A DNA stretch of 48,909 bases from a bacterium (GTDB lineage: Bacteria > AUK180): NCBI GenBank assembly GCA_023144005.1, contig JAGLGN010000004.1, forward strand, positions 1 to 48,909, in the 5' to 3' direction. Position numbers and translations under genes: made by a program. Under the pieces are notes generated by a model. That model was not told the origin of the DNA. It saw only the letters and a program-made list of their open reading frames with translations, and ran no database searches. Positions 9,061 to 43,612 of the stretch are shown in pieces; the stretch's first letter is position 1, and every line of letters starts with the position of its first letter.

Positions 9061-9694
9061 GCAAATCAGCGTTTTCAAAATACTCATCATATTTAATAAG
9101 AGGCAATAAGCGTTTATCTCCTCCGGTAACGAAGATCTTCTCTTTGTATTTATGCAGGATCTTATCAAAAAATCCCGAATACATCAAGGTTAAACCGGCA
9201 TTGATATTGCTTCTGGTGTCATTGCCGGGAAAGGGAGTAAGGAATATAGAAGAGGGGAGTTCCATACGGCCTATCGTGGAGGTTGATTTCATCACCCTGT
9301 CCGGCCCGGGAATGATCGCACCGCCGATAAGGATGCCGTTCTTTACAATACTTGCGGTGATCGCTGTTCCGAGATCAAAACAGCAGAAATCCTCTTTGTG
9401 CTTCGAATAAAAGAATGAAGCGGCCAGGATACGGTCAACGCCGAGAAGGCCGGGTTGGGCATACCCGTTGGTAACGGAGAATTTATCCGTGCTCTTGATT
9501 TGGCGTACTTCCACTCTGCTGTCCAGGCCTTTGAAATTATGAGGCGCTGCGGATGTATTATAATATACTATCCTTGAAACCTCAGGTAGCAGATCACTGA
9601 CCAGAGCATAATCGTATATCGATTCAACCGTCCCCTGATACAGGTATTTGGCCGAACTGTTCCCTATTTTCAGAAAGAGAGTATCATCTGACAT
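9035..9694 (-). CDS. coaX: Type III pantothenate kinase (CoaX-like)
   Basis: 219 residues. Known role of the family: ATP-dependent phosphorylation of pantothenate, the first step of CoA synthesis. Supporting motifs are GVDRILAASFF, FDLGTAITAS (with the Asp that acts as general base in this family) and GGAIIPGPDRVM, then a C-terminal FVTGGD. The N-terminal phosphate motif, normally DxGNT, reads KIGNSS, so the usual Asp is Lys. The protein is also a little short (about 255 is usual). The ATG at 9692-9694 lies 6 bases after GGGGAGG; a TTG two codons upstream is less likely. It overlaps birA by 11 bases, a pairing that is common in bacteria. Either a divergent kinase or one with reduced activity. 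Confidence 0.75.
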   Translation of the reverse strand: MSDDTLFLKIGNSSAKYLYQGTVESIYDYALVSDLLPEVSRIVYYNTSAAPHNFKGLDSRVEVRQIKSTDKFSVTNGYAQPGLLGVDRILAASFFYSKHKEDFCCFDLGTAITASIVKNGILIGGAIIPGPDRVMKSTSTIGRMELPSSIFLTPFPGNDTRSNINAGLTLMYSGFFDKILHKYKEKIFVTGGDKRLLPLIKYDEYFENADLHEMERNGY

Positions 9695-10457
9695 TCTCAA
9701 CCTCCCCGGTTTCTATTGTTCGGATCCCCCCGCTGCTTGCGGATATAATAAGGGCGCCGCTGCTGGAATATCCTTTAACGGTACCTTCAAAGTTTCCCTG
9801 AGATGATTTGACTTTCACGGTTTTTCCCGAAAAAAGGTCGTATTTCTCCCATCCGGCCATAAGTTCTTCGGAAGAATCATAGAGTTTCTCCCTTAATATA
9901 TTGAGATTCATGATCAATTTCTCGAGTATTTCGAAATTGGGGACCTTCTTGATACCCAGATCAAGAAGTGATGTCCAATTCTCTTTCGATCCATTCCAGG
10001 TATTCAGTCCCATACCTGAAACAACGGTCTTCCCGGACGGGCCGTCAAATGTCTCAAGAAGTACACCCCCAAGCTTTTTGCCGGAGGCATAGATATCATT
10101 CGGCCACTTCACCTTGAGTGTATCGCTATCCAAATATTGCTTCATAGTGTTAATTGCGGCAAGAATGATACCAAAATTCATGAAAAATGAGAGCTTCCGT
10201 ATATCTTCATCCGGTACGGTCTCAAATAGGGAGAACCACAATCCGCCCTCCGGGGAATCCCAAACCCTTTCCCTTCTGCCGCGGCCGCCGCTCTGTGTAA
10301 GAGCGGTCACAATACCCTTCGCCGATCCGCTCTCCGACAACTCCTTTGCTACGGTATTCGTACTGCTTATTTCCTTATAAGAATATAAGGAATAATCGCG
10401 GATAAACCCTTCGCTATGATTATAGTCTTTTTGCATGTGGCTAATGTCTTCTTTCAT
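9684..10457 (-). CDS. birA: Biotin--[acetyl-CoA-carboxylase] ligase, short form without DNA-binding domain
   Basis: 257 residues; attaches biotin to the biotin carrier protein of carboxylases through biotinyl-AMP. Catalytic motifs: SGGRGRRERVWDSP (residues 56-69), VKWPNDIY (116-123), KKLGGVLLE (128-136) and SGMGLNTW (147-154). The glycine that usually follows GRGRR is Glu63. A C-terminal SH3-like module (about residues 210-257) is present. There is no N-terminal helix-turn-helix, so it is not the repressor form. It is the first gene of the minus-strand unit. The ATG at 10457 sits in front of intergenic repeats and has no clear ribosome binding site; the Met at codon 8 is an alternative start. 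Confidence 0.85.
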   Translation of the reverse strand: MKEDISHMQKDYNHSEGFIRDYSLYSYKEISSTNTVAKELSESGSAKGIVTALTQSGGRGRRERVWDSPEGGLWFSLFETVPDEDIRKLSFFMNFGIILAAINTMKQYLDSDTLKVKWPNDIYASGKKLGGVLLETFDGPSGKTVVSGMGLNTWNGSKENWTSLLDLGIKKVPNFEILEKLIMNLNILREKLYDSSEELMAGWEKYDLFSGKTVKVKSSQGNFEGTVKGYSSSGALIISASSGGIRTIETGEVENVR

Positions 10458-10464
10458 AAATCCG

Positions 10465-10498
10465 ATGACCGTCGTTCACGAGTGAACGAGGTACGAGG
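10465..10498. repeat. Short hairpin word shared with the 138-bp MITE
   Basis: Perfect hairpin CGTTCA-CGAG-TGAACG followed by AGGTACGAGGT. The same arrangement (CGTTC, ATGAGG, GAACG, then AGGTACGAGGT) is found at about 37231-37258 inside the shorter MITE, which marks it as a dispersed module. Confidence 0.6.
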
Positions 10499-10512: not shown

Positions 10513-10710
10513 ATATCCACACCCGTAACCGGAAAATCAATTTTTCGTTTAACACTTTAATTCTCCTGTTCCAATCATATCACGCCGCACCCCAAACAAG
10601 ATATGGGACATGTCGTACGCCGCCGGCGTTCGTCTGTCCCGATGTAAAAGTTCCAAGCGGAGAGTTGAAAATTGCGAAGCAATTGTACACTCTTCGCAAT
10701 GTATAGAATC
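10513..10710. repeat. 198-bp structured dispersed repeat, copy A (uninterrupted)
   Basis: It starts near ATATCCACACCCGTAACC and ends at CAATGTATAGAATC. The same sequence, 197 bp after removing an insertion, occurs at 32423-32892. It contains two stem-loop regions: one closed by GGGACA and TGTCCC around a GC-rich core, and a second closed by GCGGAGAGT and ACTCTTCGC. Copy B keeps the second stem with changed bases on both sides. It may be a structured RNA, a palindromic non-autonomous element, or both. Confidence 0.75.
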
Positions 10711-10998
10711 CCCTGCAAACGCTCTCCACATATCTTTGAATCTCACTCCCTTTTTCTCTCCTAATTGTTCTTTATTCATTTCTCAATTATTCACTATTCA
10801 CTTCTCTACAGGCCTCTAACCTCTTCTCTAATTGTTCTCTTTTCACTGTTCATTTCCCAACTCTTCATTACCTATCGTCTGTTGTTCCACTGGGTCCACT
10901 GGTTTACTGGGTCCACTGCGTAGCGTGTCCATTTCTCTTATTCACCTCTGCACTAACCTCCAACCTCTATCCTCTAACCTCTTCTCTAATTCCCCATT

Positions 10999-11075
10999 TT
11001 TCATTCTTCATTCTTCATTCTTCATTCTTCATTTTTCATTCTTCATTTTTCATTCTTCATTCTTCATTCTTCATT
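10999..11075. repeat. TTCATTC-type short tandem repeat array
   Basis: About ten copies of a 7-base unit (ATTCTTC/TTCATTC) with some 6- and 8-base variants. It resembles the heptanucleotide short tandemly repeated sequences known from filamentous cyanobacteria. The same word appears on the opposite strand near 30670-30690. Confidence 0.8.
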
Positions 11076-11098
11076 TCCCAATTCATTGTATTTTCCCA

Positions 11099-11130
11099 CT
11101 TTACACTTCACACTTCACACTTCACACTTT
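11099..11130. repeat. CACTTCACA-type short tandem repeat
   Basis: About four copies of the 8-base unit ACTTCACA. The same word occurs near 20438-20465, 30724-30748 and, on the other strand, near 34145-34165, so it is a genome-wide intergenic word and not specific to this locus. Confidence 0.8.
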
Positions 11131-32422: not shown

Positions 32423-32892
32423 ATATTCACATCCGTAACCGGAAAATCAATATTTCGTTTAACACTTTAATTTTCCTGTTCCAATCATATCACGCCGCAC
32501 CCCAACAGAGTGTACTGTTCCATAAATACTATAACAATGGCTGATGCTATTTTGTTTTGTATTCAAGGCGCGAGGAGCGCCGCAGACCCACAGCGGTATG
32601 TAAGCAACGAGCAACACAGGAGACAGAAAAAGAGCTTCAGCCCGAAGGGAATGTCATCTTTGGTCAATTTCTTCCTCTCTCTTCGCTTCCGGACCACAAA
32701 GGGTACGCCGCAATCATCGTTTGTTGGAATTGACTCAAATCTAAACATTCCATTGACATAGTATTTATGGAACAGGACACTGGATAGGGGACATGTCGTG
32801 CGCCGCAGGCGTTCGTCTGTCCCGATGTAAAAGTTCCAAGCAAAGAGTTGACAGGAAGCGTAGCGTGTAAACTCTTTGCAATGTATAGAATC
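32423..32892. repeat. 198-bp structured dispersed repeat, copy B, split by a MITE
   Basis: Without the 273-bp insertion this copy is 197 bp and aligns end to end with 10513-10710. The second stem is GCAAAGAGTT with AACTCTTTGC. Against copy A, one G-C pair has become A-T and one G-T pair has become A-T, so base pairing is kept while sequence changes. Confidence 0.75.
32509..32781. mobile_element. 273-bp MITE inside the structured repeat
   Basis: Terminal inverted repeats of about 32 bp start AGTGTACTGTTCCATAAATA on the left and AGTGTCCTGTTCCATAAATA on the right strand. There is no coding capacity. The internal hairpin GGCGC-GAGGA-GCGCC follows the left end. Removing the element restores the 198-bp repeat without a net target duplication longer than about 2 bp. 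A related shorter element is at 37202-37339. Confidence 0.8.
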
Positions 32893-37184: not shown

Positions 37185-37201
37185 CTTTTTATATCCTCTC
37201 T

Positions 37202-37339
37202 AGTGTACTGTTTAACAAATACGATGGCAATCGTTCATGAGGGAACGAGGTACGAGGTTGGTATGCGGCACTCCCGGCGCCTCTCATGCTAAAATAAATA
37301 GCGGCAGCCATTGTTAATGTATTCATGAGATAGTACACT
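37202..37339. mobile_element. 138-bp MITE of the same family as the 32.5 kb element
   Basis: Ends AGTGTACTGTTTAACAAATA on the left and AGTGTACTATCTCATGAATA on the right strand. Read inward from the right end it aligns with the left end of the 273-bp element over about 75 bases, including AACAATGGCTG and a matching hairpin (GGCGC-CGGGA-GTGCC). Its last base is the first base of the rpiB stop codon on the complementary strand. It lies inside the BMC operon between rpiB and the vertex gene. Confidence 0.75.
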
Positions 37340-42592: not shown

Positions 42593-42653
42593 GGTTTTCT
42601 TTTTATACTGTTTTGTATATTTAGGGACGGTCTTTGATTTTGTACACAAAGAG

Positions 42654-42686: not shown

Positions 42687-43535
42687 ATGAGTAGAGCAGC
42701 GAGGTTAGATCTAAAAGGATTCTTTTATCATGTTATTTCCCGCGGTCAACGCAAGAATCCCATATTTTTCTCCCGCAAGGATTATGACAAATTCGTGAAA
42801 ATCTTGGATAATGTCCTTGCAGAGACGGATATTGAGCTCTTCGCCTTCTGCCTGATGAGAAATCACTTCCATCTATTGGTTAGAAGAAATGATACACATT
42901 TGCACCGTTTTATGAAATTATTGAACACAAGATATGCTGTATATTTCAACCACGAATACGGTTGTGTAGGCCACGTGTTCCAAGACAGGTACAAGTCATT
43001 CATCGTTATGAACGAACGGTATTTATCCTATCTGAAGGAGTACATACACAATAATCCTCTGCGAAAGGGCGTAGTGGAAAAGGCCGAGCAATATAGATAT
43101 TCCAGTGCCGCTTTTTACGCCAAAGGGAATTACGCCTATTCACAACTGAATCTTTCGAATATATTTGAGCATCCCGGATATGATGACAGAATCGATCCAA
43201 CATATCAGATCTTTGGCATCCCCGAAAGTAACGGCGTATTGGGAAGCTTTGAGGAATATTTGGTATTAGAGAAAAGACTTTCCGGAAGGGAAGCCGGTAA
43301 ATATATTGAAAGAAGGAAACAATTTGCAAAACCGCTGGAGAAAATGCTAAGTGTAATGATCCAGGAAAAAGGGTATAGTATCGAGGATCTGAAATTGTTG
43401 AGATGGAATAGAGAATTCAAAAAGGACCTGATCCCGATAATCAGAACTCTTGTGAAGTTGGGATACGGAAGGACAGATATTTCCAAGGCTATTGGTCGTA
43501 GCCGTGGCTGGATCAATCAACTTTTAAAATATTGA
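42687..43535 (+). CDS. REP-associated tyrosine transposase (RAYT, Y1 family)
   Basis: 282 residues. The N terminus (GFFYHVISRGQRKNPIFFS) and the HUH motif RNHFHLLVRR (His60, His62) are characteristic, with the catalytic Tyr in RYLSYLKEYIHNNPLRKG. Residues about 245-282 (RTDISKAIGRSRGWINQLLKY) look like a helix-turn-helix extension often found in RAYT group proteins. Such enzymes cut single-stranded REP hairpins. The gene is intact and framed by inverted repeats. It may mobilise the non-autonomous copy at 29451. Confidence 0.9.
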   Translation: MSRAARLDLKGFFYHVISRGQRKNPIFFSRKDYDKFVKILDNVLAETDIELFAFCLMRNHFHLLVRRNDTHLHRFMKLLNTRYAVYFNHEYGCVGHVFQDRYKSFIVMNERYLSYLKEYIHNNPLRKGVVEKAEQYRYSSAAFYAKGNYAYSQLNLSNIFEHPGYDDRIDPTYQIFGIPESNGVLGSFEEYLVLEKRLSGREAGKYIERRKQFAKPLEKMLSVMIQEKGYSIEDLKLLRWNREFKKDLIPIIRTLVKLGYGRTDISKAIGRSRGWINQLLKY

Positions 43536-43612
43536 GATTTTCGAATCTCTTAATGTACAAAATCAAACACCGTCCCTAATCTCGAAGCATAAAATAATCT
43601 CTGGTACGGTTT

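Follow-up and report, generated by a model that had tools for sequence, protein, structure and literature searches.

Several families of short structured repeats between bacterial genes have been described. ERIC elements are characterized by terminal inverted repeats and a TA target duplication, and CIR elements by a linker between two hairpin arms (PMC2229807). REP units are 20-40 bp long and carry a GTAG tag beside the hairpin (PMC3733652, PMC8266576). The stem-loop families of Cozzuto et al. 2008, from a study of 40 genomes, are outlined there as intergenic repeats with a common predicted structure (PMC2267715).

Here, we analyzed a repeat that occurs twice in a 48,909-nt stretch of bacterial DNA (hereafter, the window) and contains two hairpins, named H1 and H2. 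Like the enterobacterial ERIC (IRU, RU-1; 127 bp), it is short, dispersed, intergenic, non-coding, structured, and lineage-restricted. Unlike ERIC, it has two hairpins, its core ends show no terminal inverted repeat by eye (only a separate MITE family has them), and no TA target-site duplication is seen at L053/L107 and L009/L106, two loci of spacer replacement. Compared by description, CIR of Caulobacter (associated with CcrM) shares the two hairpin arms and the linker, whereas it has GANTC in the terminal loop; here the H1 and H2 loops are free of GANTC, and GAATC lies in the tail. The REP/BIME/REPIN systems with RAYT (TnpA-REP) resemble our repeat in their strand-specific hairpin with conserved stem irregularities and in the presence of Y1 genes in the genome. 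However, our unit is far longer than REP, and its consensus flanks have no GTAG beside H1 or H2. In addition, none of the five Y1 transposase genes of the genome, one of them in the window, has a flanking hairpin (0/5; H1 searched for within 1.5 kb on each side). A REP/RAYT link was rejected on the missing GTAG and the missing hairpin at the 5 Y1 loci. The families of Cozzuto et al. are alike, again compared by description, in being intergenic and sharing a predicted structure. In its workings the repeat comes closest to ERIC, CIR, and REP. Each of these has one or more defining features that were tested and are lacking here, so we regard the repeat as a new family of the same general sort but place it in none of them.

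Two copies of the repeat in the window

The preliminary description had paired 10513-10710 (copy A) with 32423-32892 (copy B) as copies of one repeat, and BLAST within the window bears this out: the left parts match at E 1e-36 (89% over 109 bp) and the right parts at E 9e-31 (86% over 112 positions). The lengths given for them, 198 and 197, also hold, as copy B measures 470 bp and a 273-bp insert brings it to 197 bp. The conserved unit extends about 20-30 bp beyond the right end first assigned to copy A; its homology begins at ~10518 with CACACCCG and fades on the right side at ~10741. The features are as follows, all on the + strand, with the evidence in brackets.

10442..10469, +: sequence to the left of copy A that differs at 3 positions from a MITE terminal repeat (separate family) and overlaps the region where the minus-strand ORF 9684-10457 starts (TIR search, alignment with the relative)
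10513..10710, +: copy A, repeat core as first delimited (BLAST and genome search)
10605..10640, +: copy A, hairpin H1 with a bulged T, two T.T mismatches, and a 3-nt loop (pattern match with a chance expectation of 0, pair counts, covariation)
10641..10656, +: copy A, linker GATGTAAAAGTTCCAA, mean column identity 95%, n=58 copies (alignment)
10657..10697, +: copy A, hairpin H2, apical part of type 1 (alignment, pair counts, folding)
10698..10710, +: copy A, tail AATGTATAGAATC (alignment)
10711..10741, +: copy A, right end of the unit, conservation lower (alignment)
32423..32508, +: copy B, left part of the core (sequence, BLAST)
32509..32781, +: MITE-like insert splitting copy B, 273 bp with terminal inverted repeats, from AGTGTACTG at 32509 to GACACT at 32781 (sequence, TIR family, identical insertion point in L038)
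32782..32892, +: copy B, right part of the core (sequence, BLAST)
32788..32823, +: copy B, hairpin H1, fitting the family pattern at all but 1 position (pattern match)
32840..32879, +: copy B, hairpin H2, apical part of type 2 (alignment, folding)

Copy number and taxonomic range

The repeat is a family of about 45 copies located between the genes of the window bacterium and of its closest sequenced relative. The H1 pattern matched 45 times in the window's genome (G000) and the reversed-pattern control 0 times, and BLAST with a 231-base query found 44 matched pieces in G000, mostly at identities of 75-98%. At least 35 copies are present in G001, the single genome of the same genus that was searched, and the loci collected contain 73 distinct H1-linker-H2 domains. 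Contigs end in or near core copies (C29:1 and the end of C34 in G000; near the ends of C12, C100, and C148 in G001), so these draft genomes probably contain more copies than were counted.

Of 98 genomes scanned with a covariance model built on H1-linker-H2, two, both of this genus, gave at least 37 matches each, and the 96 others gave none. In a BLAST search of 41 genomes, the repeat was likewise confined to G000 and G001; a match in G035 (32 bp, 88%) was set aside, as it seems to have arisen by chance in unrelated, coding-like sequence. When the GTDB genome collection was searched for the exact pattern, 31 stretches were obtained, each of them from JAGLWT01. This assembly is G001, with 100% identity in 12/12 loci among the matches listed, and the window's own genome is possibly absent from that collection. 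No matching family was found in Rfam 15, neither at gathering nor at E<=1, and the repeat was not found in viral contigs.

Anatomy and conservation

Along the + strand, the conserved box, CACACCCGTAACCGGAAAATCAATATTTCG, is followed by an AT-rich stretch, of which there are two subtypes, and then by H1, a 16-nt linker, H2, the TAGAATC tail, and a right end of lower conservation. Averaged over columns, identity among 58 copies is 0.88 in the box, 0.96 and 0.97 in the H1 arms, 0.95 in the linker, 0.92 and 0.93 in the H2 arms, 0.77 at the H2 apex, and 0.68 in the right end. In H1, one position stays bulged, as T or C, one T.T mismatch never varies, and a further opposed site is retained; H2 comes in two types. 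The family is modular: the left half, the H2 type, and the flanks are exchanged among copies.

Low-complexity arms with purine/pyrimidine asymmetry (GAAGTGTGAAGTGT..., AGAGGTTAGAGG..., CAGTGGACCCAGTGG... and complements) flank most copies, for example at window 10990-11130, and their strand is set by the core orientation on the left side. The left arm outside the core is purine-rich, with a purine fraction above 0.5 in 39 of the 42 copies, independently of the direction of the left gene (0.648 vs 0.639), and the right arm is pyrimidine-rich, more weakly (28/42 copies). Ordinary spacers of the same sample have a sense-strand purine fraction of 0.556 downstream and 0.521 upstream of genes. Both core ends (window 10513-10521 and ~10724-10732) carry 9-mers near TTATNCACA, such as ATATCCACA, with the exact motif in some copies (L019, L033, and L053); these 9-mers may resemble a DnaA box. 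Further palindromic repeats, such as GTCATTCCCGCGAAAGCGGGGAATCC and GGGCACGGCATGCCGTGCCCCTAC, lie directly to the right of many cores.

Three other readings of these parts were discarded. Pairing of the left box with the H2 5' arm was dropped by eye, the box being constant whichever H2 type is present. A coding repeat was rejected, as each frame is open in at most 43 of the 59 copies and no clear codon periodicity is seen over 50 columns. The same holds for a promoter, the TGTTACAAT stretch seen by eye varying among copies.

Covariation in the two hairpins

Two alignments were used, each leaving out domains or copies truncated by an insert or contig ends: A1 with 59 copies (14 of the 73 domains left out) and a full-length alignment with 58. 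The null was home-made, with a FastTree tree, the changes in each column kept by parsimony, 150 simulations, and an APC-corrected G statistic. The named structure pairs in 92.1% of cells (59 copies) vs 34-49% with the partners slid by 1-3 columns, a contrast that is partly built in, as the structure was drawn from the same sequences.

The changes in H1 are more telling. Columns 27/35 read GC in 56 of 80 copies, TA in 23, and AT in 1, with 0 broken. The opposed mismatch site at columns 21/41 is T.T in 59, C.A in 17, and A-T in 4 of the 80 copies, with no other state, and TT and CA are each found with both GC and TA at 27/35. With no broken state and these combinations of 21/41 with 27/35, simple linkage does not readily explain the pattern. 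The lack of breakage at these nested sites also counters the worry about linked blocks, since a single crossover between the sites would break them. Under the tree-based null, 27/35 and 21/41 rank first and second among 1176 column pairs with E ~0.007 each; the next-ranked pairs, 112-117 and 1-5, lie outside the stems at E 0.04. The full-length alignment (58 copies), tested with 40 simulations, gives E values of 0.025 and 0.05 for the H1 pairs. Several unpaired H2 columns are also at E 0.025 there, as significant as the H1 pairs, which indicates that linked-block exchange inflates the full-length test.

For H2, the base changes that the preliminary description had reported are present: the third pair is G-C in copy A and A-T in copy B, and the fourth is G.T in copy A and A-T in copy B. 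Across the 59 copies, the third pair reads GC 36, AT 20, GT 2, and AC 1, and the fourth AT 26, GT 19, GA 9, TA 3, AA 1, and GC 1. An A-T to G-C double change was observed at the orthologous H2 pair of L017/L074. The G-C/A-T swap itself falls short of significance (E ~2.1 in A1 and 0.1 in the full-length alignment), and in its two-copy form it is weak evidence because it travels with the two inherited H2 block types.

The proposal that the stems are preserved by compensatory changes is thus upheld for H1 under the tree null and not for the H2 swap, which mostly reflects two inherited types. As to stem-breaking changes at a neutral rate, the varying H1 pair is broken in 0 of 80 copies, and H2 is mixed, its fourth pair being unpaired in 10/59. 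Covariation, which had been suggested as a check, was tested with the home-made null; 27/35 and 21/41 of H1 lie beyond it, and H2 does not reach significance. It is the first hairpin, passed over in the preliminary description, that carries the compelling covariation.

Strand preference and a possible RNA role

With RNA parameters, the + strand of H1-linker-H2 folds with z values of -4.55 (copy A) and -4.46 (copy B), and 0 of 200 dinucleotide shuffles fold as well. RNA folding favors the + strand over the minus strand (-41.0 v -34.9 and -39.8 v -31.8 kcal/mol), and DNA folding shows a small gap (-22.1 v -21.1 and -22.1 v -20.1). Wobble pairs point the same way: two H2 pairs hold G.T in 19 and 20 cells of 59 copies and A.C in none, and 11 G.U vs 5 A.C cells are counted when these two polymorphic H2 pairs and columns 21/41 are left out.

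These observations argue for a structured RNA in transcripts, similar to ERIC or NEMIS, in which read-through of H1-H2 alters the formation of mRNA ends or mRNA decay, or which acts as a discrete small RNA. The conservation of the linker, which equals that of the stems, and the folding z values speak for it as well. On the other side, one-sided changes within H1 alone (G.T 8, A.C 2 in 80 copies) are only suggestive, no T-run follows H2 by eye, and an Rfam match is absent. Furthermore, the orientation of neighboring genes is unbiased. In the G000 stretches analyzed, with genes called by a simple ORF rule, 42 of the 44 hairpins have called genes on both sides, and one of the 44, at C24, lies inside a called ORF. 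In the element's own direction, these 42 gene pairs divide into 13 convergent, 12 and 9 tandem, and 8 divergent. We consider a transcript-borne role rather unlikely.

Spacer turnover between two related genomes

The two congeneric genomes were compared at matching spacers. Five of them carry the core in the same orientation in G000 and G001 (L013/L076, L015/L075, L017/L074, L019/L084, and L024/L083), one carries it in opposite orientations (L026/L082), and three further matches are one-sided. At all four sites searched (window A, window B, L009/L106, and L053/L107), the core is absent from the matching spacer of the other genome, and none of these filled/empty sites shows a clean insertion with target-site duplication. 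The empty counterpart of window B carries an inverted piece of the right end, the spacers of L009/L106 diverge from the stop codon onward, and those of L053/L107 differ throughout.

The subtypes are swapped at the orthologous sites L015/L075 and L024/L083. Such swaps, the block-like H2 types, the mosaic flanks, and contigs ending inside copies, a sign of near-identical copies, would fit decaying selfish DNA with no current function, in which gene conversion between copies and hairpin-templated correction keep the pairing. Hairpin-templated DNA correction could indeed yield some covariation without function. However, columns 21/41 covary from T.T to C.A and yet remain unpaired, an outcome that templated correction would not produce, and the nested H1 pairs assort without breakage. 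We judge this explanation improbable.

A separate MITE family and candidate partner enzymes

The MITE family has a terminal repeat TAGTGTNCTGNTTCATAAATNCGATGAC of ~28 bp, with 84 TIR matches in G000 and 0 in the control. MITE copies interrupt copy B and L038 at the identical core position, and a second insertion point, at the H2 apex, is common to L008, L014, L026, L030, L032, L070, and L089. At some loci, the MITE TIRs enclose the core. A TIR with an arm and no core is located at window 37201-37258 (TIR 37201-37228).

That the repeat is itself part of this TA-flanked family is very improbable: the 84 TIR matches against 0 in the control and the TIR-bounded units around several of the cores closest to copy A, among the matches listed, speak for it, but TIRs accompany a minority of copies (8/52 flagged by a script that missed some, e.g. 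L001, L004, L044, and L046), and copy B is among the cores that the MITE interrupts, which marks the two families as separate and sometimes joined.

No match in G000 was found to the IS630-type DDE_3 transposase as a TA-MITE partner (0), nor to the reverse transcriptase PF00078 for RNA-mediated spread (0). The TIR-bounded spans of L096 (1.6 kb) and L097 (2 kb), two of the six retrieved (L096-L101), were rejected as autonomous elements, as they hold ordinary or unknown ORFs only. The Y1 (RAYT-type) gene at window 42687-43535 is bracketed by inverted repeats TTAGGGACGGT(C/G)TTTGATTTTGTACA at ~42621-42646 and ~43554-43579.

Interpretation and significance

The reading we prefer, with about even confidence, is that the copies are genus-restricted, non-coding, non-autonomous structured intergenic repeats of ~200-230 bp, the hairpins of which are recognized single-stranded, as DNA or RNA. 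The earlier suggestion of a non-coding RNA family or structured mobile element is borne out in part: the dispersed structured family, the covariation of H1, and the better folding of the + strand agree with it, and a clean insertion with target duplication does not appear at the four sites searched. In the preferred reading, copies would spread or be exchanged at the DNA level together with the surrounding spacer sequence, and the top strand would be recognized as a folded single strand during copying of the element, so that the hairpins are kept.

Its two forms differ in standing. A single-stranded DNA form, acted on by a hairpin-recognizing enzyme in the style of IS200/IS605 or RAYT, is a tentative choice, and a role as RNA is somewhat doubtful; the former is placed slightly ahead because the orientation of the element is independent of neighboring genes. 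No enzyme tied to the repeat was identified in G000 among the Y1, DDE_3, and PF00078 candidates. Also speaking against the preferred reading are the imperfect pairing of H2, whose main swap is inherited in blocks, and the even split of orientations relative to regional GC skew (24 v 20), a weak proxy for replication. The remaining weight goes to the lack of any present function or to other readings.

A bolder version, which we hold to be a long shot, is a genus-specific element that spreads by replacement of whole spacers, not by cut-and-paste, and the top-strand double hairpin of which is recognized by an undescribed single-strand nuclease or RNA-binding system. The structure recognized would then comprise the bulged T, the invariant T.T, and the coupled site that switches among T.T, C.A, and A-T.

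The repeat represents a new multi-copy structured family that is missing from Rfam 15 and was detected only in two genomes, both of the same genus. It also brings to light a rapid exchange of intergenic spacers between two congeneric genomes, the compared flanks of which are mostly 92-97% identical. The covariation at a conserved mismatch position points to recognition by something, and the ~80 natural variants at hand exist for a binding or expression test.
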